Shown here: piece by piece, positions 2,189 to 64,000 of the stretch
How the letters are laid out: each line of letters starts with the position of its first letter
Numbering within the stretch: the stretch's first letter is position 1
From: Owenia fusiformis
Lineage: Eukaryota; Annelida; Polychaeta; Sabellida; Oweniidae
Direction: 5' to 3'
NCBI GenBank assembly: GCA_903813345.2
Contig: CAIIXF020000009.1
Span: forward strand, 23,585,759-23,649,758
Length of the DNA: 64,000 nt
Program-made: the position numbers and the translations under genes
Notes under the pieces: model-generated
Database searches by the model: none
What the model was told of the DNA's origin: nothing
Seen by the model: the letters and a program-made list of their open reading frames with translations, nothing else

Positions 2189-2194
2189 TTTATT
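2189..2194 (-). terminator. Polyadenylation signal of gene A
   Basis: The plus strand reads TTTATT, that is AATAAA on the minus strand, about 30 nt beyond the TAA stop of gene A. This is the first canonical hexamer after the stop. It would give a very short 3' UTR. Further AATAAA copies exist lower in the window (around 2050) and could be used instead. Confidence 0.45.
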
Positions 2195-2224
2195 CCGAAA
2201 AAATATAGTTCGTATTTATCAAGC

Positions 2225-2679
2225 TTAATAGTCTTCTTTGGGATATGTTGGACTCCGCTGTGTTGATTGCTTAGGCCGTGCTAGTTGTTTATTCATCATA
2301 TCAATCGGCCAGTCCTCTGCATAAAAGCCATTGTTATACCTAACATTGCTTCTTTCTACGGCCTGAAATATATTCCATAATACGTTATTGGGTTGCACCA
2401 TTGGCTTTCGTGGCATTATTTTTAAGAATGTATTCGTACTTGGCATCATATAGTCGTTGATGTGTATATTGAATTCGAACTAACCTGAGTTTTGATGCTT
2501 GTCAAATATCCAACAACTCTTCTCGCTTCATCAATTGTAGATTGTGTATCGCAATATAACGGGTTCACAGTCTGAACCATGTTCAGATCACTTTCACTCC
2601 GCCTTCTTTGTTGTTTACTAATTCTTTGAATATGTCTTCCTATAACCTTCATTTGCCATTCTTCGACGGGCGTAGTTTT
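2225..2679 (-). CDS. Gene A exons 83-84: cytoplasmic tail with NPxY motif
   Basis: Exons 2485-2679 and 2225-2362, phase 0 junctions, ending at TAA; with the last residues before the intron the tail is about 116 aa. It contains RRRSES (basic, a possible PKA-type phosphosite) and MVQTVNPLYCDTQ: NPLY at residues 5166-5169 fits NPxY, the PTB/clathrin-adaptor motif of LDL-receptor-family tails. The C-terminus is TYPKEDY. The intron before it (2680-3514) is filled by a tandem repeat. Confidence 0.75.
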
Positions 2680-5600
2680 CTGTCAGAATTCAGCAAAAAT
2701 CAATTTGTTAAAATTAATTAGAAAATCAGAAACTCCACGGAGTAGCAAATCCCACCGAACAAAACATATTTTGATAATTAGTGGCCATCTTGAAAAATTC
2801 TTCTTGCACAGAACATACCAACATATGCTATTTGAGTTATCAAAGACTATGTTTTTTTCCCAAATATGGCTGCCATTTTGAAATTCAGCTGCCATCTTGA
2901 AACGTTCTTCTTGAGCAGAACTCTTTGTCCCTATAGGTAGCAGAACATAAAATTTGAAACAAATCTGTCGACTGGTATTTGAGTCAGCACATAATATTTG
3001 AACCAATATTTTGATTTATCAAAGATAACATTTTTAACAAAAAATGGTGGCCATTTAGAAATTCATCTGTCATCTTGAAAATTTCCTCTCCAGATTTCCC
3101 TTTTCCGAGGCATCAGCATATAAAATTAACTTGATACATCCATTGATATTTCAGTTATCAAAGATTATCTTCGGCAGGCATTTTGAAATTTAACTAGGTA
3201 GGTATCAACATAGGTAGGTATCAACATATAACATTTGGTTCATATCCGTCCACTGGTATTTGATTATTAAAGATTGTGTTTTTTATGAAAAATGGTGGCC
3301 ATTTTGAAATTCAATAGCAATCTTAAAAATGTCTTCTTTAGCAGAGCTCCTTGTCCCTTTTAATCAACGGACGAACGGACGTCTTTTCTATGTCCTCCTC
3401 GGACTTCGTTCGGTGGGATAACAAGGGATAAATATCCTTGTTGATTACATACATTAAAGAAGCCATCTGTTTTGATGCTTTTACGAAGACTAGAAGACTT
3501 ATTTCAACATTTACCTTTTTGATCCGTTTCTTCACCAAGCACAGAACAATCGGAATGGCAATAAAGGCAAGTAACACTGAAATTGCGACAATGAGCCAGA
3601 CCCACCAGGGGTAGTCGGAACAAGACGATTTCGGATCGCAGTAGCAAATAAAGGAGCCTACATTATCAATACAGGTGTAGCCAGGTCTACAGGGTGAAGA
3701 CAAACACTCATTTATTTCATTTTCACAATAATCACCATTGTATCCTAGAAACAGAAATACAGTAGTTATACATTTAAATCAATGAGATAATTATATTGTA
3801 AAATAAAAGGAACAGGATATTCTTTTAAACAAGTTTTATACTCCAGGCTGTACGTACATTACTACATAATGTGCAAGTTAGATTCTAATGTTAACTTCAC
3901 CTTGCAAACATGTGCATTTGTAGCCTTGGAAACCATTACTTCGGACAATGCTCTTGCAGTCTGTATCGTTCACCTCATCTCCATTACATGTACCTCCATG
4001 TTGACACTTGTTTTCCAACACATGAATATGTATATTGACAACATCAGAAAATGCTCGCTCCTGGTCATAAACCATCACCTGTATCAATTCAGTTCCATAT
4101 TCATTCCTCTTGGGAGTATAGGTCAATGGTTGAAACAACCACTGCATTTTGTCAACTGGCAAAGCTAACCGTGGAAAATCACAGGGAAACTGTATGTGTT
4201 TTTCTACGTCATGAAATACCTGGAGCCACTTTTGAGACCTCTGACTATACGGTAAACTACAGTTTTGGAATTCGAAGAAAACTTTTTTTATGGAGTCGGA
4301 TTTTTGGATTGTACCATTGGTATTGTTAACAATGGAAAATGTTAAGTCGTCGTTTAAGTCGTAATCGTATGCTCCAATAAGAAGACGTAGTGGGTCAAAT
4401 CGAGGTTCTGTCCATTCAGTCATCTGTTCCACTGTGACATCGATCCCATATGTCCGATAAGGGGCCTTATAATCTCCCTTGTGACCTAGGAAAGCTACAG
4501 GGTTGTCGTTAACAGGAGTTACTTCAATAATTAGACTTTGGGTTGAAGAAAGCGCAATCTCCCCGTCTGTTCTGTTCTCCACTACTTCTAATTCAATCAC
4601 ATAGTTACCATTGCAATAAGGACAAGGTTGGTAAGTCAGTAGGCCTTCTGGCGTAAGTGCTGCACGTCGCGAGTCAAACGTTTCATCATTAACAATCAAA
4701 AACACGAACGGATCCGCTTCCTCATCAACTGCTACCAATTGAAATTCCAACTTGGCACTATTTTCTTTTATTTTAAGTTTGTTAGTAGAAGTAATATGAG
4801 GGGCTGTATTGATAAATACGTTCGATACTTCAGTTAGGGCAAATTGTATCTGTCCATTGTACTGACTTATTCTTTGTAGCTGTTTCATTGGACCAGGGCT
4901 ATTTTTAACTGGGGGTAACGAACACACAGATATTTTTATGTCTCCTTGTTTTCCCAAGGTTCTATCAGACGCTTGTCCATGCTCACAATATTTCTCTGCT
5001 TTCATCCACTTACTTAGATCTAGAACAAATACATTTAAAATCAAAGATGGCATTTACCTCTAATTGATTGTAGATGAGATCTCGCCAATCCTATTATTTA
5101 CATTTGTATGTATTAGGAGTGTGTTTTAGATGGAAGTTAGTTAGAAGGCTTATGAAAAAAAACAATTTGAAATCATTTTAATAATCCTCACCTGAGTGCC
5201 AGAACAATAAAGTAAGGTTGCTTGATGAGAAGTTTATATCAGAGGTTGACAATGCAATTGTAAGTGAACCATCTAGTGCCTCTCCTATACTGTTGACGAA
5301 GAAACTTACTCCACTCCACGATCCTAGTCTATTTAGAAACAATGATTGATTCTAGTGTAATGAATGCATCTTATATATTCCGCATTATATAAAGGACGAT
5401 TCTCGGTTTGGAGAACGAAGTTCATCAATCTAAATGAGCATTATCCCTGCTTCGGACAAATTTGATTTTTTTACATAATATAGATTTGAATGTTTTCTTT
5501 TGAATAGTCATAATTTAATTTGGGTAATATTTCTAGATTTTTCGCAAAAAAAATATTAGCGCAGTACACTGATGAGCTTCTTTCCCCAAATCGAGACTTG

Positions 5601-8600
5601 TATTTTATTGAATCTGTCTAATTGAGTGTTATCCCTGCTTCAGACCAATTTGTTATTATAACATCTTGTAGATTTAAATGTCCTCTTTTGAATATTCATA
5701 GTTTAATTTGGGTAATATTTCTATATTTTTCATGAAAAAAATTATTAGCTCAGGAGACTGTTCTCCAAACCGAGAATCGTCCTTTACAACCAGAAAGAAG
5801 TGTCAAAGATAAAACAAAACAATTAAAAACGGTAGTACTTTTCTTTTCACCAACCTTTCTAAATTACAATCAGATGTAAAGATGCATACCTGTGCCTAAG
5901 TTGTCGATCTGTTTGATCAGTTGTACTTTCAGGATCAACAATATATGGTTTGAATTTTACTGATGCATCAGATACATATGTCTCCTTTACGTCTGTGTCT
6001 GCTAATGTTCCGCATGCTAATGTTTTTCCATTGTTGAGACCACCACGTGCATATACATGTACATGGATTGTTGTTTCTGAATTCGCAATTAATAGTTTAC
6101 ATCCCTCATTTGCAGGTTTAATGATATCAGTAGACCTAAGAATGAGTGCCGTTGAAGAAGCGACGATATTGCAAATATCACCTGGTTGGCACTTTTCTAG
6201 GCTGCTGTAAAGTAATCTAAAAACACCAGATTTTGCAAATGAAATCTCTATTTCAATTTGTATCTCCTATGTCTCTGGTAGTTATTCCGTGACACCGAGA
6301 TACACACATGTTCTCTGTAAATTAACTCAAGCTCTAACCCAGGACCAAACAAAATATACATGGAAACTATAAAAGGTTTAGTGATTGGCCATCTTACAAC
6401 TTGAAATACATGAGAAGCGTGTAATATAAAATACTATTAAAACATGTGATTACTTTTGGTATAATTTGGCGTAACGGCGTGATTGCTCATTCGATTATGT
6501 AATCAAAACCCTAATCGTTGTGAATGAATGAAATCTCTTTAAGATATACCTTCCAGGTTCCATATGGAATGTATTGCTAATAGGTCGTTTAGTGTCATAT
6601 ACTTGTCGAGCATCTGAAATATTCACAATACCATAAGGTTCCATAATTATATGACCCTCTTCAACTTTAACTTTTCCACTTTCAAACTTGCCAGCACGGT
6701 CAATTTCTTTCGCTGCAATTTGTAGCTTTGGTATGATATCATCAGCTGTCCAGGGATTCGAACCAACGACGTAATCTGAAATGCACATGCAATCAGTCTA
6801 CATCAGCATTCTATTTATCAATGTATATAGACACTTAGAATTTCATTTGATGGGTCAATTGTTAAAAACGTTTATGGCATGTCTTTGGAAAATCAAAATT
6901 CACTGCCGTCTCGGTTTACTTACATATAACCTGGTCATTTGCTTCTTGTGTTATTTCGTTTAACCAGTTAATACCAGTTCCATCTTGATCTTGGCATACG
7001 GTGACATCTCTGATAATGATTTGGTTTTGATATGGTCTCCTACACGTGGCATTGACTATTGTAAGACCACTTATATTCTTGGGTAAATAGACGAGCACAC
7101 CTTTATAACGGGAAAGAATATAACTATCATCAACCTTAATCAGAACGTAAAAGTAAGAAGTGTATCTTTAAATTGGAATGGCCCTTGGTGTTCTGGTCTT
7201 GGATTGGGATATTAGTTCTTTTTCTCTCTAGGTTCCATTACAATTTTTGATCCCTTCCCTTTGGCACTTGTGCTAAGATATTTCTTGAAATTATTATCTG
7301 TAATCGAAGAAGAAGCTCTGACTATGATATACATATGCTTAAACAAGCATCCTACCGAGAGAAGCGTTGATTGTTTTTCCACCAGCGCCATTTGTAACTC
7401 TGAGAGTGATGAAATATGTACTATTATCATGAAGAATTCCACCCAGATCGTCACTTATGCCCATCCTTTGTAAACCAACAGAGCGATATGGCTGTATATC
7501 TGTGGTAAACGGATTTCTACCAATCCCCCATTCAAACTCGGCTATCTGCAAACATGTTTGAAATAGATACCACCATCGAACAGTGTTCATAGTAAGAGTA
7601 TATGCTATCATGATTCTATCAAAGATCATACACCAAAATGTTTATTCAAAATGATGATCTGACATGTTTACAAGTTCCCCTTGTCTTTGGACCCTAGAAT
7701 CAAATGTTTCAGGTTATTGTATTTAGACATGTATTGCCATTAACCCCTCTCTAATAATAGATTAATGTGAATAAATACCTGGCTTTCTTTGTCATAGGCA
7801 TCCCATCTTGCAGCTATGTATTTATCCTGTCCCTGTCTGTAAACTTTATTCATATTCGAGACAGATACATCGACATGATACAGAATGTCTATGATAGGAT
7901 CGCTTGTGTCTATGGTTACTCCATTTGATGTTGATGTTACAGATATGCCAGATCCTATAAAGGTTGATAGCTTGAACACTAACAAAGCGATGCTAATGAT
8001 TTACGATTCATATGAATCATTTGTTGTAAAAGTATAACTTGATATGTTTTATTTCATGTGTCGGATGCAAACGGCTTTATGAATCTATTTTTCTAATTTT
8101 GTAATAAGGATGATCATATATTTTAAGAGAAAAATTCACAAGTTTCACAATGTGCCAAATGCTAACCTGTTATTCCTTTTACATGTACGAAATAGGTGGC
8201 TGCCATAATGCCAGTTGCGTTGGTGCTTGAAACGTTAACGCGTTGGTAATCTGGTAGATCCAGTCCATCTAAGGTCACTTGGTACAATTTTGTTGCTGCC
8301 TTACAACCTTGGTCACAATATAATCTACTACAGAGAGACGTGCATGGAAGGCAATTGACTCCGATAGGTTTGTAAGCAACGACATCTGTGTCTGTTTTAG
8401 TTGTTCCAAGTCCAGCTTCAAACGTGAATAAAGGAGACCCCATATTCTTAAAAGGTGCTCCAAAATTACAATCAGAGGGCTTAGAACGTGGAACACTAAA
8501 ATAAATGAAAGTAAATAGGTATAAACATCTTTAATTTATTGTTATGCACGTACTTGATAATTATTCCGTTTCATAATACACATTCAATGAGACTCACCTG

Positions 8601-11600
8601 ATGAATTTAAAGTATGCAGCTGACTTTGGTCTGTTGAAAGGGTCAAATATATCAGGATAATAATGCTCTTTAGTTCTCACACCCAAACTTATAAGACCCG
8701 GCTTTTTTATAACAGGGACACCGTAAACCAATGCAATGATCTTGCCATCCACGGCCAGTTCTATAGCATTGGACTCCTGAAATATCGTTCACAGAGTAGA
8801 AACATGTTTATTTCTTATCGAAATGATTGTTTAAAAGGCAACATCCAATCTAAAAATCATTCAACATTACCATTTGTAACTGGAGTGTATATGTGTGTGA
8901 CGATTTAGAGGGATCAAACTGCAATTGTACAATCTCATTGTTTGGCGTTCGTGAACCATTTTCCCAACTGCACAAAAGGACTGCATAGCTGAGATTACCA
9001 TACACAGCTAAAGTGGAATACAAGTGATTATGCTGTATTCTATTCACTACAGCTAAAATGTTATAAAGACGTTACGTATTTATAACAAAATGGACTTTCG
9101 TCAGAGGATTTCTTTATTTTCATAGTTTTCACAAAGAAGGAGGTCGAGCATACATGTCATAGTAGTGCTAATACTGTCTACAATTATCTTTATGATGAAG
9201 AGTAATAGCTAAGTTAAGTTAAGTATGTAGAAGGAATGCTTTTTCAGATTTGGATTGTTTTCCAAGTAACTGGTTATTTCTTAATGTTTTCTAATGTTAT
9301 GTGATGCACTTTGGTTTCCTCTATGGTACTTCTCATATTCAATGTTTTATATACCTGTGTGCACCTGAAACCCACACGAATTTTGAGATGAAGCACTTGC
9401 TGAACCATTATATGTATCGCCATCTAAAGGCAATGTTCCCACCTTGAGATCAGAAGTTGAACTGTGAGCAGGTGGAGAAGATGTTGAACTTGTAGTGTAC
9501 TTATCATTATTCGTTACTAAAATGTTGACAAAAACAAGAACGATAAGGACATGCTATGCTATATTCAAGATAATATAAATTTCAATATGTTACGTCCGTT
9601 AATATATGCACTTAGATACTTTTCTTAGTATTACTAGTTATACATGCATCTTATCCCTTTCATTCATTGTAAATCAATATAATTATATACATTTATATCA
9701 TAATGTAAAACAGTGACGAAAAAAAAATTATTTACAATAAATACATGTTTCAAATAGTTATTCAATATTATATATTTTAGTATACCGTTTATGTACTCAG
9801 ACATATCCACATCGAGATCTACAAAAACTCCACGTGGTCCATCTCTAAGAACCACACTTGTTACACTGTACTCATGGAGATCACTGGCTTGAATTACAAA
9901 CTAAAACACAGAGACAAACCTGTCTTTTAAACTACTTATCGTCTATGTCGAGGGCATTATATTACGGTGTGGGATCTATACCTTCAAAGTATGGGAAAAA
10001 ATAAAATAAATCACGTAATGCAATGTTCAAATCAATCATTCTTCTATGGATTTTTTGGGAAATAGTTCTAATCATGATCAATTTGCAGACATTCTGCACT
10101 TCGAAAGCCTTTCTATCATAACTTTTTTTACCACATTTACACAATGGCTTCTGATAAAAAATATTTTGGATACTCTTGATAACGGTTGAATTTTTTATCT
10201 TCTATTTCTAAAAAGCATCCCGAATTTTTCTTAGTAAAGTGCTGTACCTTCTGTTTAAGTCCTGCTACAGATTAATAATAGTTCAATATTTTGTAAAATT
10301 CATATACATAAAAAATAAAGTATTTCAATGTTATCACAGGGTGGTCAACAATAAAATGAACCCCTGAACGGACCATATTTCCCTTATTACCTGCAAGAAT
10401 CCTTTCACATTTTCACATGTTGTAAAGGAAGGTTTAAAATTTTGTTGGTACTATACATTTTCTTTGTCTTGAAATTTGCAGATATTATAAGCTCTAATCA
10501 ATTATCACTGAAAATGGATAAAATGTGGTTTTCAACATCCACGATTCTTCACATTTTAGCACCCCCCCCCCCTTGACAATTATTTTAGTTGCAGTATTGA
10601 AGAACTAATATTTTTTTGATTGTTTGGTTTTGAATTACTCGCAATGATATTGTGATCTGTTGTGTTATTGGGAAATATATTTCTAAATTGCCTAAGGTGA
10701 AAATTTTCTCTAGTGAAATCGCAACATTTCCATATACATGTATATGATGAAATGTCAATATCCTCATCAATCATGGGCCACTTTTAATGAGCATGGCTCA
10801 AAACATTGAATTTTAAAGTTTCTTTTTATTTTCTAAAATTATTTGATTAAGGCCTCTCAGATTCCTGGTCATAGGGGCAGCTTTTGCCCCCTCTAACCGT
10901 TTGTGGAGGTAACATGCCCCTTACACTCTAAAAAATTATTACTTTGATTTCCTTATATTGAGAAATTGTACGACTCATTTTAAGTAAAAAATTACTTAAA
11001 TAATCTTGAACTACTGAATAATTTTTAAGTAATTTTTTTAAGTAATTCATTTATGGAGAATTTACTAATGCAAGGAGAGAAATTGAAATACTTACTGTAG
11101 TAATTGTAATACTCATTTACATAATTAAGCAATTAAAAAACTCAAAATGACAATATAAGTTCAACCTAAGTAAAATGAAGTAAAACTAAGTATTTAACTT
11201 TAAGTAATTTTTATACTTGGGAAATACTTGGGAAATACTCATTAGTAATTCATTTTTAAGAGTGTAATTGTTGAACGGTTAAAACTGCTTCAAAATGATC
11301 AATGGAAGTGTGAAATGTGTTTTCTGCTCAAATAGTGTACCATTTGTCATACAATATGGTTTTAAATTTGTATCTCTAACTAAAAGCTATTTAAAGATCA
11401 TCCAATGTGTTTCAACAATTTCCGTAAATCACATTGGTAAAACTTTGCACAATATCTAATTTTCAGGCAAGTTTGTTTAAGTATTGCAATTTCTTCAAAA
11501 TTTAAGATTGAGAATAAACTATGGCATCAACACAAATTGTAGACCCTTTCTACAACATGTCATAATATGAGCATATTCGTGCAAATATTAAGGAAAATAT

Positions 11601-32600: not shown

Positions 32601-35600
32601 TATAGTTATAAAATTATGTTGTGTAAAGCTGGTATGTTACTGTGCAACTGCTTTTGCTATATTTGCCATAGCTGTTTTAGGAGATTTTGTCAAATCGGTA
32701 ACACTTTTAGCAGCATTCTTGAGTGCTCTTTCGATCTGCAATCCAGCCCATGGGAGGGACACTTCTACAGCGTCAGCTATGGACTGAATGGGAGAGAAAA
32801 ATTTACATTAACAAATAAAACCGAACATACATGATATACTTCCTCCAAACCATGCAAAAACTGCCAAAAGGCAGATTTGTAAAAAATAATTGCATAGTAA
32901 CCGACTTACTAATTACTCTTACTTTACTTTATTTAATAAAAGATTGCTCAGGTGCTCACATTATAAAACTCCATGACATCTTGTCTGACGCCAGTTAAAA
33001 CAGTTTGAGTTTTTCGAAGTGCATCATTGACCCTTTCAACAGCATCTGGTAATTCATTATATTTATAAAACATCTTGATGTGATTGTCGAACTCTGAGTT
33101 AAGATACAATGTCTTCGGTATGTATTCTATGGAACCTGCAATACTGTCAAATATATCTGCTATGGAAAATGTTCGGGAAGATTTCAATATATTGTTGAAT
33201 GTGATTATAGCAGTCTTAACACTATCAACCACGTTGTTGATGACTTTGTCGTATGCATTTACTAGTTTCACGGTATCATCATAACCAAACTCCTAAAAGT
33301 ACATAACTGACATTCAGTTTACTTGTCGAGAATAACACATGATACAATCTAATATTCAATATAATTCTGTTCCCATCAACCACTCATGCAGCCAAAATGA
33401 CAAATTGTGTATAAAATAACACACGTAATAATTGATCTGTTAATAACGTCGAAGGAATTTACAAAAGATTATGAAAGCATGACCATGGTATAATTTGATA
33501 ATATGAATAATTATATCACATGGAGTCTATCATAAACTACATTACCTGCAATATGTTAAGCCCATATTTGATTTCTCCATTGAAACACATTTCTCCGACA
33601 AAGAATTTTATATCAATGCCTACAAACCCAACTACTCCTCGTGCATATGCTGTATCGAATATGTCAACAAGAAAATGTCCCCGAAGCGGCTCTGAAATCA
33701 AATGAAATCACCAACATTGAATTGCGATCGGCTGTTTGTGGGATTTGATAATTCAACAATGTGCACAAAGTGAGATACGACAACTTTCGAAGACCGATTG
33801 GAATGCAATCCCAGGATTATGAACTTACACTTCAAGACATTAGTTATCAACGTTTTATGAACTTCTGCAAGTATACCAATTACACATCCAAAACTCCCAA
33901 TGGGGCTCATAGCAGCAGTAAACTTGTAGCAGGGGTACACTTGACGTATATTTGCCGCATATTAAATACTTATTTTCCCAATAAGAGTCATTTAGTGCCA
34001 TCTTAGACTTATACTAACAAAAACCCAGCCGGTAACGGCCTTTTCTGAAAGATCAACAAACCAAAGGTTGTGAACGAACCCAAATCTCAGAGATGACAAT
34101 GCATACTATGTTACTGTTGATTAGTTTGTTGAAACCGTTTGTCTTGCGACCCTCCCCTTCGCCTCGAACCCGGCCGGGAAAAATGAACCCCCTTGGTAAA
34201 TCGTGGCTACACCCTTGGAGAAGCATCAGAGAGTTGAAACAAGAGATAAGAAGAATGACTAGAGCCATTACACATGATATATGTGAGCTTTTGTAAAACA
34301 ACCACCATAAAATCGTGGTCATTTAAGACAGACCAATGAAATTTGGAAGAGTGAAAGGACATTGGACACGGTTCAATTATGCCAAATCTGATTTTAAACC
34401 CATGCTGGATGACTGAGTTCTTTGCATTTGTTTGGGTGACCTTTTTTGGCTCACCCTGTACTCCATAAATTTGAACTTCATTGAACCATTGTTCGATAGC
34501 AATGCTAAACCTGCGCCTGCCGATAAAAATTAATCGTGGGATGATCCGTAGCCTTGCCCAATTCGGTCTCTTTTACTTGTCTTGATTTCTGTTATGACCG
34601 CCTTGTACCAAAGAGAAAGCCACGTGCTTTACCGACAGTTTGTTGATGTAGGTAAAATTTGACCAATCAAAGACGGCCCTGTAGCGATAGCTCATTATTA
34701 TGCACGGTCAAAAACAAGTACACTTTTCACCGGGACTTTTCACGAACAAATCTTACGAATCTGAGCACGAATTCATCATGAAGATACAAATATTTTATCA
34801 GATAAATATCAATGAGAGTTTAGTGGATGCCGGTGCATCGATCGGATAACCAAAGGTGAGAAGAGTTCAACAATAAACGTTGGAACGATCGCTGAACATG
34901 TAGGCTGAGATTCAATCACCGATCGACGACAACATGACCCGCTACATTGGACTAGGTCTTCGTGCATTTTCATCGCGAAATCAGTTTTAAATCAACATTG
35001 AATCGCATGATTTAATTTATATTAATGCCTCTTACCTTCCAATGTACATTTAATTGCATAATATATTGTAACTCTAAAGAAACACTCGATCAGATCATTG
35101 CATTTCAAGTCGTAGATGGGAAGTTTGTTTTGTTTATGCAGCTCAACCTGATAACGTTTTAATTGGTCATTCAGCCTGAAGTCACACGTCGTGTCCACGC
35201 GATATCTGTCAATCAATAAGGTTTCGCGATACCCCTGATAGCGTAGGTATTATGGAAATCTCGAAACCGTTGAATATTTCAACATAATAACAGCGGAGAT
35301 GTATTGGATTGTACAAGGCGGTAATAATTCAAGATCAGATAAGTAAAAAATACCGACTTGGGCAAGGCTAGATGATCCGATGTCCCTTGTGATACTTTTA
35401 ACACATTTTTAGATCAATTTCTAGTTTTGCAAACATACGTATTTGGAGATCCATAAGGTTTCGTATCACCAGCCCGAATTTGGCCCCGATGTCATCTGTT
35501 CCAACTTGTGCCCTCCAGTCTATACCAGGAAGTTCGACCTTGAAATCAATCCCTCTGAATAACCATTCAGCACTTCGTTTGTTTCTGTAGTGTGACTTTA

Positions 35601-38600
35601 TTCTCATGGCTTGTTCATAAAGACTTGTATTACGATACCTACAAATTAAATAAAGGGATGATACAGCCAAATGTGGTAGTTCATATTGCACGTTCGTTGT
35701 GATAAGGTTTAATACTATGAGACAAATCGTTATACCCGCTTTAAACGAAACGTATGTTACACTATTATAATATACAATCATAGTATATCATATAAACAAT
35801 GTATTTTATTATTCGTTCCTAAAACTCAGTTGTAAATAGTCATTAGAAGCATTCTAATGCAACACAAAGTAAACTGCATTTTAGGCCATATCGTACCCAA
35901 GATGAACTATCTGGCGTATTTCATCTACGTTGGCAGCATGAGGGTGACTCCAGTATTGGAGACAGGCATGGTGTCGAACATGGTCCTCTGGATCGTTCAA
36001 TGCGACTGACATAATGTGATGAGCAGCCTGGAGAAAAATGAATAAAATTTCAAAAAATCATATTTTGTTAAAGTGTGTTATTGCTGCTTTAATTAGGAAA
36101 AACGTATGTCTTCGTAATGAAAAAAGAGAACCTCTTCATAATTGAAATGTCGAAGCGCTTGAACTGCACTGCGTTTCAGTAGAGACGGTGTCTCGGGGTG
36201 GTCAATGTATGATAGTATATATGGATATGACGTGTCGTGTGCAGCATTCCCCAAGGCATGTATATACCCTGCTTTCTGATGCAGATGCTTTTCAAGTTCC
36301 TTTTCCGAAATCATTGATCTAACCGTTCTATGTTCGGTCTCATCTGCAATAAGTGAAAGATAATTTACCTCTAGTTTCATGAACTACATATTTGTGATTG
36401 GTTTACGGAAGTAATGCAATGCAAGATTGTCATAGAGTTTGCTATACACACTCACCATGATGGCCTAGGTTGGTATGAATTCTCTCCAAAATCGTTAGAC
36501 CTTTTTCCACATGATGGTCATTTAGTGTCCTTGCGATAGCTCCAAATATCAGCAACGCCCTATTTCTTACAATATGCTCTTCCTCGTCATCTTAAATCAA
36601 TCAGTTAAATAACATGACAGCATAATGCAATGTACAATTTCATTATAAGACACTGTATTTGCGTAGAACACTCACCCTCATAATTTGTTTCCTTGGAAAA
36701 GGCCCAATCCTCGATGGCGTCAATTGCAATCTAAAACAGATATACATGTTGCGTGTTACACACGAACTATTTTCTTAAATACTTATGGACGATGCACACT
36801 TGGATTTTACTACGTTACTCACCTTTGGAGGAGGCGTTTCACGCCCTGCAAAATGTAGCATGGCTCGCGATACGAGTCTAGAATCATGCCCTTTGTTCAA
36901 AAGTACAAACTCGGTGATGATTGAAAGTGAATGATTAGTGCCCACCATTCCTAACACGTCTGTTGCTACAGTCTGTAACGTTTTGTCCTTGCCAAACTTT
37001 GGTTTTGTTGTAATGTATTGTTCCGCTACTAATCTTATGTCTGGATCTGATAAAGAACTCGCCAGTTCAACAGCCAACTGCAAGTGATGGTTGTGCTCTT
37101 TGGAATCTATGTTAAAAGCAGAATGATATATTCAGAGCGCACTTCAAGGAAAATGTGCATGATGGTAAAATTATGAAATCACTTGCATATTTGGCAAATA
37201 GATATTTGGCTGATAAAATAAGCCAGACAAAGAAGCGGATATGTCCGGTTCTATAGTCCAAATAGCGTGGTAGGCAAACTTATATTAGCTCATATTTAGT
37301 AGAATTAGAAATAGTACTAACTATACTAGTGGTCCGCCAAATCTCTTGGTATAGGTTATGTCTCTACAACATGGGAGATACGGGGCATATTTCAAACTAT
37401 GTTAGGTGATTTAAGAGTATAAGAAACAGGAGAAACGTTGACTATGTAGCCTTTTTACAATTTTGGGGGGATTAGCTGGAAAAACATACATAGGCAGGAA
37501 TTACTTCCATGTCTAAGTATACGCCTAGTACATAATACTGTGATTTGTAACACATGTTGGTCTTATCCCCTTTGTCACGCATGCTTACATATTTGTAGGT
37601 GCATTGCTTAACTCTAAGTACATTTTTTATTTTGTGTATTGAATATTTTAAACAATTGCACGAGAAACAAATTTGAATCTCTGTTCGAATGTTCTAAATC
37701 TTTTATCTTACCTGCACGATCTGTTTTTGCTATGACTGTAAAGTGGTTATGTAACTGATCCTTAACCACTTTAAGAGGTCTGGAGGGATGCATTGGTTTA
37801 TTTCTCACATGTATCGTATCTTCCTCAACATTTTCAGATTTAGGATTTTCCCAATTCCTGTCACTGTCCGTTATTCTTTTAAACTCCAGATGCTCGTTTG
37901 ATGTTACGGTCATTACAGGTAGATCTAAAATCAAGTAAAAATGTCCTGTGGAAAGAATAAGTTTACTTACCTTCACACGGGCCTTCACAAGTACAAACAG
38001 ACAAACTTAGCTATTCAAAAGACATATATATTAGAGGTAAAAGGGGTCAGATATTTTTTGGGTCGGGTCGGGCCAGAAAAAAGCGTGCGGGTCAGGTAAT
38101 TTCGGGTCTGATCAGAGGAAAACAGAAAAATAATTTGACTTAATTGTCTTAGTCTTTTATGAAATATTTCAAGAACATCATACTGCATATTATGCTTTTA
38201 TAAAGGAAAATGATAAAAAGCATTAAATCATTGGGGAAGAACTGTGAATTGTAATTTATACGTGTACAAAAATAGGCCAGTTATGTTTTTTGACACGAGC
38301 CTTTCGACCCAATATATTTCGAGTCGGTATGACACCTCTAATAAATATACATATATTCAAATCATCTCAATCGATCAACTATTTGTATAATGATGCTTTC
38401 ATATCTAATGCTGTAACATATCGTCCATTTTAAATCGTAGTTTGGATATTGGGATTTGTTTTTAATGCATTATATTTGTTTTTGTTGGTCTACTAAGTCT
38501 TTAAAACGAGAATAATTACTTACTAAAATCATTTGCGAATCCGTTCCCGTGTTTTTTGTTCGGGTCACCAGGCAGCCCTTGATTGGGATTGTAACTGAAA

Positions 38601-41600
38601 TATAACAATTTTAGGAATAATATAATCATTTTCCCATGCTGTAAATGTTATCCGGACTAATGTCCTGTAACGGGATACGTGAAATTGGTTCCTATAATCG
38701 AGGTTCTAAAAAGTTTTGACAATTTTTCTATTATCCACGTTTTGGCAAATGTTTACAAAGAAGGTTACTTCGCTAAGGCTTTTTATTCTTCTATGCGCAT
38801 GTTAACAATTATTTTATGTACAAAATACAATCAAGTCCCAACAAACCGAGCGCTGTAGTGAAGTGCGCCGAACTAGCTGTGAAATATTATTTCAATTTCC
38901 GAATGGTAAGGTCACCATTTTTAGTGATCGATCAGTTATATCTACCATTTCCACAGAATGAATTAAATGGATGACGTGTAATTAGTGATACATAACTATT
39001 CTGTACATAGCTACAATTTTAAGTTTCACGATCATAAGTATGCTCTTGGCAATATTTATTGTGTCGAAAGGGAGAAAAATACTACGAAATTTTGCTTGAG
39101 GCTCCATATCAATTCTAACTTGTTCAAAGAAATCATACATCAAAAGCATTCTTGTGAATGTTCTGATAAAATGTTGTAGCGATATTTTGGCTCCAGGCTA
39201 CTATATAAAGTATAACTCGCCTTACCCTGGTACCGCTTTATTCGGGGCTGTAAAGTCAATTGTGGACATCACTTTCTTTGGGATGCTTGCCTCTTTGTTC
39301 AACTCGATTGTCTGCAACCAAACGATGCTCTTGCTAACCATACAATATTTACATCTACTGAATTTCGTTTCGTCTCGACAATAAAAGTGATGGCAATTTT
39401 GAATCTTCATGAATACATAAGCATTAGTGCCAAAGGGAAAGGACCAAAAGTTGTAATGGAACTTAGCAAGACAAAGCAAACTCTAAGTGCATACCAGTAA
39501 AGAAGAACAAACCCCATATAGCCCAAAACCATGATCTATCGTGAAAAGAAACAATGTCTAATGCCCCCTTTCAAAAACCAATATCACAATCCAAGACCAG
39601 AAGACCAAGGGACATTTCATTCATACTGAAGTCATTACAATGTCATTACATGTTGAAGAAAAAATTAGAAATTGATAGCCAATACCCATAGCCTCAAAAA
39701 TAGTAATGTAGGTACAAGTACTCATAAAAGATAGAGCATTCAGTCTCAAATGATAGATGGGATAGATACAATCTATCATGATATAGATAGTCGAAAACTG
39801 TAGTCATTATTGTCATTACTTTTAAGGTAAGGTAGTTGTACAATTTCAAGCTAGTCGATTGAACACTTTTGGCGTTTTTACTAAAAAAGCCGAAAAATGG
39901 ATTTCTGCAATTTAGTTAAAGTGACAGCCATTTTGACTGTTTGTGATACATTTTACCGAAAGGAGACATTATGGATATGTATATTAGGCACTTGTACAAA
40001 ATTGCAAACAACATAATGGAAATCTTGTGGAGCTATGACCCAAAAGCTGATTTCCCGGAATAAAAGTGGAGGTCATTTTGAATCTGCAGCATATTTTGCC
40101 GAAAATTGTAGACCTCATTGATAACTTAGAAAGGTACCTGACTGTACAATTCCAAGCAAATTGATTTAATTCTTAAAGAGTCATGACCAAATCTAGGAAA
40201 ACTCAAAACTTTCAGCAACAAGGCAAGCTTTTGAGATGCCACTTAATGGACAATTGAAGACTTTTATGGAAAATTTTGAAACCATTTGAAAAGTTTTACA
40301 AATGAAACTATTTGAATTTTTGAGACGATTTCGAACTAAATACCAATTTGAAGACAGACAGTCTAGAGGATTGACGGATGGACCGCGGGCAGACAGACGG
40401 ACAGATAAGTGGGTGATTACAATACAATGTAGCTCACATGGGTGAGCTACAGTGAGGCAGTAAAAACCAACATTGTTACCTTTCTATGGAAGCCTTCACT
40501 ATTAGGAATGCTGTGTCCATGTTTGTGTTTCACAAACGTTATACTGTTTCCAACATCTGTCGCTGCATAGTTTGAAGTATGATTTCCTGCAGATGGGACA
40601 AACATATTATAATATTATATATACATGTACCACTTCTTCGACCCCAGATGTCCCGGGCCGGTTGCCGCAGGTATTTCTCTTTTTCGGAAAAGCTACAAAA
40701 GCTTTAAGTAGGAGTGAAGCAAGTGTGATTGGAGCATAAATATACTTTCATATGATGAAAAATATGTCGACCTTACCAGAAGAATCGGTTTCATTGATAA
40801 GATATGCCCATTTCTTTGTTCCTGACACAGTTTGCAAACTAGAGACGTGCAGTCGTGTAGATAGGTGACTGACAATCGATTTTTTGATTATGATAACATC
40901 TTTGTTTTCCAGCTTAGGATACCAAACTTTGTCCACTTCCCCATGACAGCTGATTCTAAAGCTGAACCTAAAATTGTAGACATCAACGGTATCCAACTAG
41001 ACTACACATGTTCTTCACTTTGTAATAATAAAGTTGATAATGATAAAAATATGACTTCTAGTTCGGGTTGATTCCCAATAGACCCCATGTAACAAATTCA
41101 CAAAAAGTGAGTTTTTTCTACTATAACCGTCATGCTATCTGACCCGAACGAGCCACCTGGTTGTGAAACTACTAACTACCTATGAAATATAATTTTAGAA
41201 AAACTAGACCTACCATTTTTTAAAATTTAAGTGTCCAGCAGCATTTTCTATTCCTAAAAGAATGAATAAAGGTGACATGAAACGATATACTGTTTATTCT
41301 ATTCACAATTCTTTTGATCACATAGCCAAATAACTTATAAGCTCTGGTTGATTTTTACTTATACTTCTTCAGAAAAAACTTTATTGTCAAACAAATTGTA
41401 TTTTGTTTTATATTTTTTACTTTACCATGCTGGTACTGTCCATCGTGTGTTATTGAAAGTGTTTCAATATTCAACACAGCATATGTTTTACCCTCGTCTT
41501 TTTGGTATGGCCTGACTGAAAACTAAAAGTTCATTCATGAAGTTTTATCAAAATATATAAAACTAGTCAGGGTAATTGTAAATTGTAAAAACTACATGCT

Positions 41601-41905
41601 AGCTTGTTTGAAATGACCGAGGATGATAGATCTTTCAAATAATAGCAGTTTTAGATTTATCAAGTCCAGTACAAGAAATAAAAAGCACGGAGATTAAAGA
41701 AAACTTCACATTTTTATAGTTTACTTACTAATGCCTTTGTAGAAATGGGTGTCATTCCCTGCGCTGAGGTATCAGCTGCATAACTGTAAGTATATGTTTT
41801 ATTGAGCTGGAAATTGACGAGTCCTTGTGTCGGCCGGGAGGTGTGCCGTCCCATTACCGACGTCATTAAACCCAGCAAGATCACTATGCATCCTTTCCAC
41901 ATCAT
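2225..41905 (-). CDS. Gene A: giant membrane-anchored lipid-transfer (vitellogenin/apolipophorin-like) protein, 84 exons
   Basis: One minus-strand gene of 5,237 aa. I followed AG acceptors and GT donors exon by exon; every junction from the ATG at 41905 to the TAA at 2225 keeps the frame, and the exons sum to 15,714 nt, a multiple of three. Most introns are 100-900 nt. Domain order: signal peptide, LLTP N-terminal module, helical stretch, LECT2/M23-like domain, Cys-rich and beta-rich regions, PAN/apple, FN3-like array, cadherin-like repeats, two EGFs, transmembrane helix, NPxY tail. Known LLTPs (vitellogenin, apolipophorin, apoB, MTP) lack such a C-terminus, so the likely role, a surface lipid or lipoprotein receptor or transfer protein, is inference. 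Least certain are acceptor choices at 40967, 39311 and 14552, and the donor of the exon ending at 35405. Exon blocks are listed separately. It could be two genes if a start or stop lies in an unseen exon, but unbroken phase argues against that. Confidence 0.8.
2700..3340. repeat. Tandem-like repeat with GGCCATTTTGAAATTCA core
   Basis: Three to four degenerate units of roughly 150-190 bp in the last-but-two intron of gene A. Shared phrases: ATGGTGGCCATTTTGAAATTC, ATCTTGAAA...TTCTTCTT.AGCAGA.CTCCTTGTCCC, and ACTGGTATTTGA.TTATCAAAGAT. A short direct duplication (TAGGTAGGTATCAACA) lies near 3200-3230. Confidence 0.7.
3515..3744 (-). CDS. Gene A exon 82: EGF 2 and transmembrane helix
   Basis: Residues 5051-5127. 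YNGDYCENEINECLSSPCRP closes EGF 1 and opens a calcium-binding-type EGF (xINECLSSPC, then GYTCIDNVGSFICYC). A 25-residue hydrophobic span follows at about residues 5097-5121 (WVWLIVAISVLLAFIAIPIV), with a basic stop-transfer VKKRIKK. With the N-terminal signal peptide this predicts a type I single-pass protein, ectodomain outside. Confidence 0.85.
3901..5019 (-). CDS. Gene A exon 81: cadherin-like repeats and start of EGF 1
   Basis: The longest exon of the gene (1,119 nt; residues 4678-5050). It carries cadherin-like sequence: VAVDEEADPFVFLIVND, a closing SLIIEVTPVNDNPVAF that mimics the DxNDNxP calcium motif, then LIGAYDYDLNDDLTFSIVN and a third strand set ending VNIHIHVLE. The end is the first half of an EGF: CQHGGTCNGDEVNDTDC and GYKCTCLQG, completed by the next exon. 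Typical of juxtamembrane regions of large adhesion or scavenger-type receptors. Confidence 0.75.
5192..9900 (-). CDS. Gene A exons 70-80: Ser/Thr-rich linker and divergent FN3-like modules
   Basis: Exons 9786-9900, 9355-9516, 8871-9052, 8598-8776, 8167-8495, 7779-7978, 7356-7545, 6924-7100, 6550-6775, 5890-6216, 5192-5328; residues about 3936-4677. Exon 9355-9516 is a Ser/Thr-rich spacer (KYTTSSTSSPPAHSSTSDLK), a possible O-glycosylated segment. Exon 8167-8495 holds a six-cysteine cluster (CLPCTSLCSRLYCDQGC). Exons 7779-7978 and 7356-7545 repeat the RWDAYDKESQ / GIGRNPFTTDIQPY / YFITLRVTNGAGG pattern of the upstream array. The region around exon 5890-6216 is not recognised beyond being extracellular in composition. 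Confidence 0.7.
5390..5786. mobile_element. MITE with perfect 27-bp terminal inverted repeats
   Basis: 5390-5416 (TAAAGGACGATTCTCGGTTT...) is the exact reverse complement of 5760-5786. Inside are two direct copies of a 150-170 bp unit, each with TTATCCCTGCTTC.GAC and AGTTTAATTTGGGTAATATT. No coding capacity. It lies in the intron between gene A exons 79 and 80. No clear target-site duplication was seen. Confidence 0.8.
10336..11640. mobile_element. Non-autonomous DNA transposon with CAGGGTGG ends
   Basis: Left end ACAGGGTGGTC...ATGAACCCCT and right end AGGGGTTCACCTTTTTGGACCACCCTGTA are inverted copies, about 1.3 kb apart, in the gene A intron between exons 69 and 70. The CAGGGTG terminus resembles mariner/Tc1-type ends. 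No transposase frame was found; a poly-C tract sits near 10561. A second element is nested within. Confidence 0.65.
10921..11267. mobile_element. Nested MITE with TTACACTCT ends
   Basis: Left TTACACTCTAAAAAATTATTACTT is mirrored by AGTAATTCATTTTTAAGAGTGTAA at the right. The interior is rich in AAGTAATT/AATTACTT palindromes, which would fold. About 347 bp, inserted inside the larger CAGGGTG element. Confidence 0.65.
11731..24347 (-). CDS. Gene A exons 40-69: array of FN3-like modules with VDxTPP signatures
   Basis: Exons: 24224-24347, 23933-24104, 23607-23719, 23308-23478, 23018-23198, 22750-22916, 22209-22382, 21782-21979, 20253-20680, 20014-20135, 19692-19857, 19442-19604, 19141-19300, 18850-18980, 18093-18352, 17712-17978, 15975-16218, 15592-15807, 15410-15503, 15178-15295, 14905-15050, 14671-14807, 14286-14552, 13703-14000, 13387-13516, 12956-13207, 12491-12712, 12224-12398, 11959-12101, 11731-11892; residues about 2070-3936. 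A repeating pattern is visible: ANW..F.DPESGI..Y, then GFDDI.PF, then YYV.V.A.N.AG, then a linker such as VDTTPP, VDTSPP, VDDTPP, VDVTPP or VDATPP followed by G.V.DG. These look like divergent fibronectin-III-type sandwiches, probably an extended extracellular stalk with many N-glycosylation sequons. The acceptor at 14552 is weak but needed for phase. Confidence 0.75.
16402..17386. mobile_element. Foldback element with long imperfect inverted arms
   Basis: The two halves are reverse complements over hundreds of bases. Examples: CATGAGACTTTCCTTACTGGATATTATACATTG (left) matches the complement of the block at about 17190-17240; GGCATAATTGATGGAT (about 16642) matches 17050-17065; CATAGACCAACTGTT (16740) matches 16957-16971. 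Ends are TACAGGGTG...CACCCTGTA. It sits in the gene A intron between exons 55 and 56. The 70-aa frame inside is not a recognisable protein. Confidence 0.75.
20794..21759. mobile_element. TIR element with ACCGACC-rich ends
   Basis: AAAGTTTAGGGTTTACGAAAAACACCGACC at the left is mirrored by GGTCGGTATTTTCCATAAACCCAAAAGTT at the right. Both ends carry extra runs of ACCGACC/GGTCGGTGGTCGG. It fills most of the intron between gene A exons 47 and 48, ending 22 nt from an exon. No convincing protein inside. Confidence 0.65.
24436..26081 (-). CDS. Gene A exons 37-39: FN3-like module and apple/PAN-like domain
   Basis: Exons 25875-26081, 24743-24878, 24436-24641; residues about 1887-2069. The first exon ends an FN3-like sandwich (PLYYLIIAKNSQGG) and starts the next. 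The third has the PAN/apple signature: RTPQACAKECLLLPPAKCSS, then FNYDYGSDGICELLD, where CAKEC..........CSSFNY.......C.L is the expected cysteine spacing. PAN domains bind protein or carbohydrate. A reverse-transcriptase fragment and a short tandem repeat lie in the intron between the first two exons. Confidence 0.65.
25010..25440 (+). pseudogene. Non-LTR retrotransposon reverse-transcriptase fragment
   Basis: Two frames together carry decayed RT motifs: AIRKAFDSVWIDGLF (the K.AFDSV.H..L motif) and, after a frameshift, GAPQAGALSMLLYQLYMSDI (the QG..QG..LSP.LY.LYINDL motif), then a degraded catalytic box where YADD should be (CNAGDM). Truncated at both ends and broken by stops, so inactive. 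Inserted in the gene A intron between exons 37 and 38. Confidence 0.7.
25540..25850. repeat. Short tandem repeat with GGCGGCCATTTTGAAAAATGG core
   Basis: Two full units of about 130 bp and a partial one. Shared: GTAGGCGGCCAT, CCATTTT.ACGTTTTT, ATTTG.TAT.TGAATACTGTAA and CACTGTCT.ATGACACTTT. The right edge abuts the donor of gene A exon 37. Confidence 0.7.
26211..28878 (-). CDS. Gene A exons 29-36: beta-rich region of unknown function
   Basis: Exons 28778-28878, 28380-28524, 28181-28287, 27856-28018, 27345-27415, 27031-27188, 26686-26899, 26211-26432; residues about 1493-1886. Strand-rich sequence with many Gly and aliphatic residues (GGVRPTMGSYVRGAIEVGLV, VRITGYLMTTSFPTRVGLGY), ending in a Pro/Asp linker (NDPKPDDTPPDF). 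No named domain recognised. The donor of the exon at 27856 was chosen as GTATGT because it alone restores the frame of the following exon. Confidence 0.6.
28989..29198 (-). CDS. Gene A exon 28: small Cys-rich module
   Basis: Residues about 1423-1492. The cysteines follow CPELI...YC....DC....CCV...(23-24 residues)...LDPC, a compact disulphide-rich module between phase-1 introns, so it could be shuffled as a unit. I recall similar C-x-CC modules in large uncharacterised invertebrate extracellular proteins but cannot name a family. Bounded by clean splice sites. Confidence 0.55.
29356..30440 (-). CDS. Gene A exons 25-27: acidic linker, second furin-type site, SAP-like helices
   Basis: Exons 30344-30440, 29810-30051, 29356-29497; residues about 1263-1422. 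The first is a Pro/Glu/Thr-rich linker (GGPEEKDTSPTLENNPDTS). The second begins DLTKDERRKRESSDG: RRKR at residues 1301-1304 is a strong furin-type cleavage site. The third contains ELSDSELKHALAQQKKDSSG followed by REQLLEKFYQI, a helix-turn-helix resembling SAP motifs. A SAP-type DNA-binding role makes little sense outside the cell, so I treat this as a fold resemblance only. Confidence 0.6.
30561..31517 (-). CDS. Gene A exons 22-24: LECT2/M23-peptidase-like domain, metal site degraded
   Basis: Exons 31346-31517, 31043-31177, 30561-30821; residues about 1100-1260. CGNGFYPSTQGGNYDYQGVQ, then GSELVVPFSG, then a KKNEVLGHVTYSASLCMDSHIHF block and IIDPTRYL follow the order of lysostaphin-type (M23) folds and of the secreted chemotaxin LECT2 (CG...HQGVD...GS.VYAPF.G...IKKGEKLG...SHVH...DPT.YL). 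M23 enzymes bind zinc through H-x-x-x-D and H-x-H. Here the first pair is replaced by YQGVQ, while the last motif (His1220-Ile-His1222) is kept. It is therefore probably not a peptidase, but a binding module. The assignment rests on motif recognition only. Confidence 0.6.
31646..33292 (-). CDS. Gene A exons 17-21: long amphipathic helical region
   Basis: Exons 32960-33292, 32641-32783, 32400-32470, 31954-32108, 31646-31812; residues about 784-1073. No named domain recognised. The sequence is low in Cys, Pro and Gly and rich in heptad-like helices, for example NNVVDSVKTAIITFNNILK, AVERVNDALRKTQTVLTGV and LASLDTIEKAIEPIG. In an LLTP context such helices could bind lipid or form a coiled-coil bundle; that is inference. 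Confidence 0.65.
33546..35638 (-). CDS. Gene A exons 14-16: furin-type site and beta-sheet of the lipid cavity
   Basis: Exons 35405-35638, 35036-35205, 33546-33691; residues 600-783. The first begins YRNTSLYEQA and soon reaches HYRNKRSAEW: RNKR (residues 618-621) fits the RXK/RR furin consensus and sits just after the helical domain, close to where apolipophorins and apoB-like precursors are cut. The rest alternates hydrophobic and polar residues as in LLTP beta-sheets. The donor of exon 14 was taken at 35405 (GTGTTA) because it gives the phase needed by exon 15; a stronger-looking GTATGT at 35438 would break the frame. Confidence 0.65.
34537..35385. repeat. Inverted repeat pair flanking gene A exon 15
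   Basis: GGGATGATCCGTAGCCTTGCCCAATTCGG...ACCGCCTTGTAC (34537-34611) is mirrored by the block at 35308-35385. The arms are about 75-78 bp and enclose about 700 bp, including exon 35036-35205. Either the arms are ends of a transposable element that has come to enclose an exon, or they are two independent copies in opposite orientation. Confidence 0.6.
35897..37106 (-). CDS. Gene A exons 9-13: LLTP alpha-helical (superhelix) domain
   Basis: Exons 36823-37106, 36676-36730, 36456-36590, 36132-36343, 35897-36027; residues about 328-600. The translation is a run of paired helices of the vitellogenin superhelix. Landmarks are LLIFGAIARTL, HLHQKAGYIHALGNAAH, SYIDHPETPSLLKRSAVQAL and MSVALNDPEDHVRHHACLQY. 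The ALGNA..........Y...PETP..LKRSAVQALR pattern is typical of vitellogenin, apolipophorin and MTP and is the strongest family evidence in the gene. In LLTPs this part cradles the lipid cavity. Confidence 0.8.
37712..41905 (-). CDS. Gene A exons 1-8: signal peptide and lipid-transfer N-terminal beta module
   Basis: Exons (high to low): 41729-41905, 41426-41522, 41214-41253, 40777-40967, 40480-40586, 39226-39311, 38524-38594, 37712-37924; residues 1-327. Residues 1-19 form a classic signal peptide (MMWKGCIVILLGLMTSVMG). Then comes FQLNKTYTYSYAADTSAQG, the usual opening strand of vitellogenin/LPD_N domains (F..gk.Y.Y.Y). FSFRISCHGEV..VWYP followed by an IIIKKSIVSHL segment matches the later part of the beta-barrel. 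Exon 8 is hydrophilic and looks like the disordered linker to the helical domain. The 86-nt exon 39226-39311 is the least certain: its upstream boundary was chosen because TTGCAG gives the required phase; a longer version is open in the same frame. Confidence 0.75.
38028..38343. mobile_element. MITE with TTAGAGGT ends and GGGTCGGGTC
   Basis: Left TTAGAGGTAAAAGGGGTCAG...GGGTCGGGTCGGGCC is mirrored by CGACCCAATATATTTCGAGTCGG...ACCTCTAA. About 316 bp, in a gene A intron. Flanking 8-mers ATATATAT and ATAAATAT differ at one base, compatible with an 8-bp hAT-type target duplication, but the flank is low complexity. Confidence 0.55.
39830..40250. repeat. Degenerate repeat, CCATTTTGA type
   Basis: Phrases recur at about 170-300 bp spacing: GTACAATTTCAAGC / GTACAATTCCAAGC, AGCCATTTTGACTG / GGTCATTTTGAATC, ACATTTTACCGAAA / ATATTTTGCCGAAA. 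It is in the 39312-40479 intron of gene A. Related in style to the other CCATTTTGA arrays in this window. Confidence 0.5.
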
Positions 41906-63951: not shown

Positions 63952-64000
63952 GTAGGATGGTTATTCGCTTGTGCTTTGGAACTCATATAGATTACTTATT

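Follow-up and report, generated by a model that had tools for sequence, protein, structure and literature searches.

Large lipid transfer proteins (LLTPs) are divided, in the sections of PMC1783640 and PMC10799875 drawn on here, into vitellogenin/clotting protein, apoB/apolipophorin and MTP classes, whose members are located either outside or inside cells; a membrane-anchored class is not among them. Vitellogenin is recognised by its LPD_N, DUF1943 and VWD domains, and LLTPs are believed to have emerged before the cnidarian-bilaterian split (both from PMC10799875). A likewise unusual LLTP-like architecture is that of a vitellogenin-like skeletal protein of the coral Acropora digitifera, which combines a Vitellogenin N-terminus with VWD and a kinase domain, FN3, EGF and transmembrane regions not being mentioned in the section of that report considered (PMC4890752). 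In a window of 64,000 nucleotides (nt) from the annelid Owenia fusiformis, to whose positions all coordinates refer, we find a gene in which an LLTP front end is fused to an adhesion-receptor-like back end comprising stalk, membrane segment and tail. No description of this protein was found in the open PMC literature, subscription papers lying outside that scope, nor in the portions consulted of PMC9265791, PMC4890752, PMC1783640, PMC9219001 and PMC10799875.

The gene lies on the minus strand, running from 41905 to 2225, and our final model, m4, comprises 83 exons encoding 5105 amino acids (aa). All 82 introns are GT-AG, of 85-1830 base pairs (bp; median 170), the reading frame is phase-consistent throughout with no in-frame stop, and the model extends from an ATG at 41905, which opens a signal peptide-like start, to a stop codon finishing at 2225. 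It derives from an open and phase-consistent chain of 97 exons, found by a purpose-written splice-aware dynamic-programming gene finder and corrected against P0001, a paralogue from the same species, and against the public model P0003: 14 exons (one of zero length) were removed because P0001 or P0003 is contiguous at those points, two were extended and one was shortened. A start further upstream, through weak exons reaching to 44491 and beyond, was rejected because the paralogue aligns only from the signal peptide encoded at 41905 onwards. The original prediction of a phase-consistent model was thereby borne out to the base in its ends and in its phase, its count of 84 exons giving way to 83. 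The parts it named, namely signal peptide, superhelix, PAN, FN3-like, cadherin-like, EGF, transmembrane and cytoplasmic regions, are all present, the cadherin-like and EGF parts scoring below Pfam cut-offs in this gene. Signal peptide and transmembrane calls are by hydrophobicity only, and the Pfam scan of this gene used three pieces of the draft protein, which include some later-dropped exons and lack about 45 residues of the final protein. A poly(A) signal-like hexamer is present at 2194, 31 bases beyond the stop codon; this is weak evidence, since 15 such hexamers also occur on the same strand within 30000-36000.

The evidence that front and back are encoded together comes from relatives. 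Three protein searches at an expectation value (E) <=0.001, in which only candidates sharing most words were scored, retained 4/1962, 80/1192 and 5/1410 candidates and yielded 84 different proteins, P0003 included. By name their sources are amphioxus, acorn worms, starfish, a brittle star, gastropods, bivalves, a nemertean, a flatworm, the glass sponge Oopsacas and metagenome-type sources. The LLTP front and the receptor-like back are joined in the same domain order in annelid, amphioxus (chordate), hemichordate, echinoderm and mollusc, and partly in the glass sponge, where two overlapping incomplete proteins cover it, which supports the interpretation originally placed on the locus. In comparisons of m4 with ten relatives selected among the 84 (P0001, P0002, P0004, P0009, P0014, P0028, P0038, P0057, P0068 and P0073), one alignment spans position 32142, at which the public model begins, in 10/10 cases from six phyla, and in six of them (P0004, P0009, P0014, P0057, P0068 and P0073) the alignment crossing this point also reaches at least residue 4891. 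Single BLAST alignments cover m4 13-4992 in amphioxus P0014 (37% identity) and m4 31-5000 in oyster P0068 (27% identity), and colinearity over such long alignments excludes chance. Furthermore, the fusion recurs in five phyla, with a partial case in a sponge, which speaks against a mis-join of neighbouring genes. We consider it almost certain from these comparisons that a single gene encodes both ends.

Domain content and predicted fold place the front end in the LLTP superfamily beyond reasonable doubt. The Vitellogenin_N profile, as anticipated for the joined protein, matches this gene at E 1.7e-12 (47.2 bits against a cut-off of 24) and 9/9 chosen family members at E<=0.1. An AlphaFold2 (AF2) model of P0001 1-726, the N-terminus of the paralogue, finds ten PDB matches at E<=0.001 with Foldseek, all ten LLTPs; MTP is the best, and the lipovitellin structure 1lsh and honey bee vitellogenin are also matched. 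Ranked below the LLTPs are HEAT/armadillo-type repeat proteins among others, as expected of a superhelix, and with the family profile A2 designed repeat proteins matched better (2.1e-7) than lipovitellin (1.5e-4). The gene thus resembles vitellogenin in Vitellogenin_N and in fold, and differs from it in having a predicted membrane anchor and an FN3-like stalk, with no open-sheet match of its own and no VWD found in the draft protein (E<=0.5), nor in the relatives P0018 and P0034 (E<=0.05). DUF1081, which with LPD_N made up the criteria applied for the ApoB/apolipophorin family, gave no match in the draft protein at E<=0.5. By the features tested, the protein fits no named LLTP family and carries a predicted membrane anchor.

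The back end is built of modules that are recognised with differing strength. PAN_1 is above its cut-off here (25.0 bits against 21.4), as it is in P0018 and the sponge proteins P0073 and P0082; fn3 is slightly below it (23.5 against 25) and reaches 43.6 bits (3.5e-11) in P0018 and 43.5 (3.8e-11) in P0034. The Cadherin profile PF00028 scores 12.7 bits against 28.8, with a match that falls in the FN3-like part, and the cadherin-like part itself is below cut-off in this gene, Big_9 being above it in P0018 and P0034; EGF is above cut-off in P0073 and below it here. A provisional 'LamG?' label for a conserved segment before the cadherin-like part was withdrawn, nothing having been found in its support. 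A C-terminal transmembrane-like segment is seen in 51/85 sequences (the 84 proteins plus m4), and in 27 of the 35 in which the LLTP segment is accompanied by most of the cadherin-like one. Anchoring is therefore common and not universal: the forms without such a segment are amphioxus P0004-P0006, which have Sushi and C-type lectin domains instead and are possibly secreted, Haliotis P0057/59/60, and P0011 and P0043, which stop early. For the Owenia protein we regard membrane anchoring as very likely. LDL-receptor-type receptors are type I proteins with EGF-like modules near the membrane and an NPxY motif in the tail. The present protein would share this layout, having EGF-like modules near the membrane and NPLY in its tail, and would differ in that the lipid-binding fold appears to be built in rather than being the ligand; LDLa repeats and YWTD propellers were not found in the draft protein at E<=0.5. 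An NPx[YF] motif is present in 14/51 family tails (13/50 genes, as this gene is counted twice, as m4 and as P0003). Shuffling the tails 500 times, a control that ignores shared ancestry, gave 1.6 on average and at most 6; the excess is no more than suggestive. C-terminal ends of the [PA]xx[DE]Y type occur in eight sequences, this gene again counted twice. The flatworm relative P0061 (Macrostomum) carries the database name 'GPS domain-containing protein'.

Among the features newly seen here is a furin-type convertase site behind the superhelix. Of 82 sequences examined, 45, this gene included, have the LLTP and 'link' segments in order, and R-x-[KR]-R lies between the two in 45/45 (RNKR in this gene), compared with 224/8313 random windows of matched length (maximum 120 residues) in the same proteins, both counts ignoring shared ancestry. 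The stretch searched has a median of 54 residues; in P0078 it is 782 residues long, which makes that match uninformative. The LLTP front may hence be released by cleavage yet stay attached non-covalently to the anchored part, and cleavage at RNKR is probable. A second basic site follows the M23-like domain in 22/42 sequences. Cleavage at RX(R/K)R in a comparable position is described in PMC1783640 for crustacean apoCr, which has DUF1081 and VWD, and for insect apoLp-II/I, there carried out by furin; both proteins are extracellular. The Owenia protein is like them in combining the LLT (large lipid transfer) module with R-x-[KR]-R behind the helical domain, and unlike them in its predicted transmembrane segment.

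Beyond this site the order departs from that of known LLTPs. In m4 the link (about 90 residues) is followed by a helical coil, an M23-like domain, a partly SAP-like segment and only then an A-sheet-like segment. The distance is about 770 residues in m4 and grows to about 3000 in the long forms of echinoderms and molluscs. In MTP the C- and A-sheets come after the N-terminal domain, and the same is stated for vitellogenin in the portion of PMC9219001 consulted. In an alignment of 14 members, m4 included, chosen from m4 and the 76 proteins with an A-sheet-like segment, MTP_lip_bd matches six (best 2.6e-4) and Vit_open_b-sht three (best 0.002), and the only PDB match of the resulting profile at E<=10 is MTP, residues 739-826, at E 0.013. 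The beta-strand hydrophobic moment of link and sheet exceeds that of the FN3 region in 11/11 chosen proteins, a comparison biased by the sheet segment having been partly picked by eye for its amphipathic look. These matches point weakly to a lipid sheet of MTP type that the insertion of coil and M23-like domains has displaced. The family would resemble the MTP large subunit in N-sheet, superhelix and this sheet; MTP differs in being intracellular, with 884-894 residues in solved chains and neither stalk nor membrane anchor, whereas here the sheet lies far downstream past the insertions and is followed by stalk and membrane segment. Peptidase_M23 is above its cut-off of 28.7 in P0018 (37.3 bits), below it in P0034 (25.8) and P0001 (16.8), and present in 5/6 members of alignment A3 at E<=1; it is absent from the matches listed for this gene, where the M23-like assignment is made through alignment with relatives. 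SAP matches 3/6 members and scores 12.4 bits against 23.9 here. M23 and LECT2 domains bind zinc through HxxxD and HxH motifs. In this gene the first reads YQGVQ and is lost and the second, HIH, is kept, and the domain is probably a binding module and not an enzyme. Two kinds of lengthening were seen in relatives: P0025, P0026, P0038, P0040, P0050 and similar long forms have more than 2000 additional residues separating 'mid' from the A-sheet-like segment, and amphioxus P0011 has a long 'DISVQVP'-type tandem repeat run after the M23-like domain.

We put forward, with somewhat better than even confidence, a model in which this gene encodes a furin-matured, surface-tethered lipid-transfer receptor. 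It would be a type I membrane protein with an extracellular N-terminal LLT module, a stalk of PAN, FN3-, cadherin- and EGF-like parts, a single membrane helix and a short tail. On its way through the secretory pathway it would be cut behind the superhelix by a furin-like convertase, leaving a barrel/superhelix subunit of about 600 residues bound to the anchored subunit, whose amphipathic sheets (link and MTP-like A-sheet) would complete the lipid pocket. Such a pocket of two subunits is suggested by segment order and sequence. At the cell surface the protein would then take up lipid or lipoprotein, hold it or pass it on, and clathrin adaptors could internalise those forms that have NPx[YF] in the tail. 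Lipid binding we think reasonably likely; a role as an endocytic lipid receptor is a serious possibility that falls a little short of being probable. Two other functions deserve weight, each of them unlikely. The first is that the protein is tethered only during synthesis, the LLT module being lipid-loaded at the membrane and the ectodomain then shed as a secreted lipoprotein. Shedding would fit the R-x-[KR]-R site found between the 'pre' segment and the cadherin-like part in 39/65 sequences, paralogue P0001 (RHKR) among them, and the eight two-ended forms without a membrane segment; this gene, however, reads MKQLQRIS at that place, and membrane segment and tail are retained in 27/35. The second, of similarly low probability, is an adhesion or pattern-recognition receptor whose LLTP fold binds microbes or matrix, lipid transport having been lost. 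The PAN, FN3-, cadherin- and EGF-like modules, the Sushi and C-type lectin domains of amphioxus relatives, the many amphioxus copies of the family and the immune roles proposed for vitellogenin (in the excerpts consulted) would all suit this, as would the resemblance of the M23-like domain to LECT2-type binders (E 0.9, not significant). A pure adhesion protein, on the other hand, would not need the amphipathic beta segments and the weakly matched MTP-like sheet that have been kept.

Several observations weigh against the tethered lipid-transfer receptor. The AF2 model of the front end has a predicted template modelling score (pTM) of 0.44, and the TM-scores of the P0001 model against the ten LLTPs, normalised by query length, are low, at 0.25-0.31. 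The A-sheet-like segment of m4 itself has no Pfam match at E<=1, 8/14 members lack an MTP_lip_bd match, and in a single-segment Pfam test 1/3 sheet segments matched, below the cut-offs (18.5 against 23.7; 12.0 against 27). The link profile has no credible match in PDB or Pfam, nor does a profile of the whole P0001 612-1650 region have a credible PDB relative; the fold model of that region, with helices in the coil insert, came out at a predicted local distance difference test (pLDDT) value of 46, of low confidence, which leaves the split pocket without structural support. To these are added the shared ancestry behind the convertase and tail counts, the selection by eye of the sheet, the uninformative site in P0078, the 8/35 two-ended sequences lacking a membrane segment, the 37/51 tails lacking NPx[YF] and the separate start given to the back end by the public model.

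This last point would speak for two adjacent genes, one vitellogenin-like and one receptor-like, having been joined in error. P0003, whose record names Owenia fusiformis, matches m4 at 100% identity over two blocks and at 99.8% over a third, which assigns the window to this annelid. The public model begins at 32142 and lacks m4 1-896. Its first 11 residues are the sequence immediately upstream of the splice acceptor at 32108, and it further skips m4 1283-1431 and 1908-2018, PAN being among the skipped exons; for both reasons it is best read as a truncated model, and the separate start of the back part, which the original prediction had named as a danger to it, exists on paper only. A mis-join is highly improbable, as relatives from six phyla align across that point, the database entry for the Owenia paralogue P0001 is a single protein of 5087 aa ('Vitellogenin'; a second paralogue, P0002, of 2494 aa, is incomplete), phase and splice sites are consistent in m4, and the error would need repeating in several phyla.

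At E<=1e-3 segment profiles find the LLTP segment in 46/84 proteins, the A-sheet-like segment in 76/84 and the cadherin-like segment in 65/84, and their order is never violated in 85 sequences. Many models have no front end, the nemertean and flatworm matches are to the back end only, and P0080, P0081, P0083 and P0084 match repeats only or none of the profiles. The sponge protein P0082 (2527 aa) has Vitellogenin_N above cut-off (30.6 bits) and RRRVRR before the link, followed by the coil, the M23-like domain, the sheet and PAN; sponge P0073 retains little of the LLTP segment but extends to the membrane segment. In a midpoint-rooted tree of 57 rows, in which several long branches are unsure, the sponge pair lies outside a group of 43 bilaterian rows. 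Amphioxus is spread over several subgroups, one of them shared with molluscs and the nemertean, a pattern suggestive of old duplications in the family. P0077, P0078 and P0079, with LLTP, link and A-sheet-like segments, have very long branches and could come from non-bilaterian animals or from outside the animals altogether. No vertebrate, arthropod, cnidarian or tunicate was seen among the matches listed, and we claim no loss in these groups because scoring was confined to candidates sharing most words.

The features of the gene are collected in Table 1. Elsewhere in the window, positions 57727-64000 of the plus strand hold a multi-exon draft gene with approximate exon bounds, a SUEL/galactose-binding lectin domain (PF02140, E 3.8e-20) and, by eye, EGF-like sequence; single open reading frames within it gave no Pfam match.

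Table 1. Features of the Owenia fusiformis gene in window coordinates, with residue numbers of model m4
Feature	Positions	Strand	Basis
Whole coding region	2225..41905	-	83 exons, 5105 aa
Signal peptide-like start MMWKGCIVILLGLMTSVMG	41849..41905	-	hydrophobicity only
LLTP N-sheet (beta region), aa 30-300	37791..41818	-	AF2 model of P0001 1-726 and PDB comparison; bounds transferred by eye
LLTP alpha superhelix, aa 301-600	35635..37790	-	Vitellogenin_N above cut-off, HEAT_2 below; AF2 model of P0001
Furin-type site RNKR, aa 617-620	35575..35586	-	R-x-[KR]-R in 45/45 sequences
'Link' amphipathic beta segment (possible C-sheet), aa 627-717	33284..35556	-	conservation, beta moment
Helical/coil insert, aa 722-995	31672..33271	-	conservation; helices in low-confidence model
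M23-like domain without full zinc site, aa 1001-1167	30567..31656	-	alignment with relatives
Conserved segment 'mid' (SAP-like in some relatives), aa 1171-1326	29366..30437	-	conservation in relatives
Segment ending in LLTP A-sheet-like amphipathic sheet, aa 1490-1700	26743..28264	-	matches in relatives, not this gene
PAN domain, two exons	24224..24641	-	PAN_1 1.7e-5, above cut-off
Tandem FN3-like repeats	9786..24104	-	fn3 6.5e-5, slightly below cut-off
Conserved segments of unknown fold upstream of cadherin-like part ('pre' and one other)	4913..9394	-	conservation in relatives
Cadherin-like/Big_9-like segment, aa 4604-4884	4004..4846	-	below Pfam cut-offs here; Big_9 above cut-off in P0018 and P0034
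Two EGF-like modules (second by eye), aa 4882-4955	3635..4012	-	EGF above cut-off in P0073
Transmembrane segment, same exon as second EGF	3536..3592	-	19-residue Kyte-Doolittle mean 3.08
Cytoplasmic tail, 117 aa, spliced	2225..3535	-	m4 model
NPLY motif in tail, 46 aa beyond membrane segment	2554..2565	-	motif search

Members of the family are named 'uncharacterized', 'Vitellogenin', 'JAG1', 'HEG1', 'SELE' and 'Delta-like protein 1' in databases, and by such misleading names annotation and studies of yolk proteins may be misled. An LLTP that is both conserved and membrane-anchored would form an additional class in the superfamily and would provide lipid traffic with a single surface protein acting as carrier and as receptor, and a glass sponge with Vitellogenin_N in the same architecture bears on when LLTPs arose. 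More tentatively, and at odds that we would not put high, the family might represent an ancient LLTP branch, present in the ancestor of sponges and bilaterians, in which the protein works as a surface receptor with a built-in two-subunit furin-cut lipid pocket, a displaced sheet and a tail that links lipid or lipoprotein handling to endocytosis. If this is true, the secreted yolk and plasma carriers and the tethered form would be sister solutions of one ancient module.
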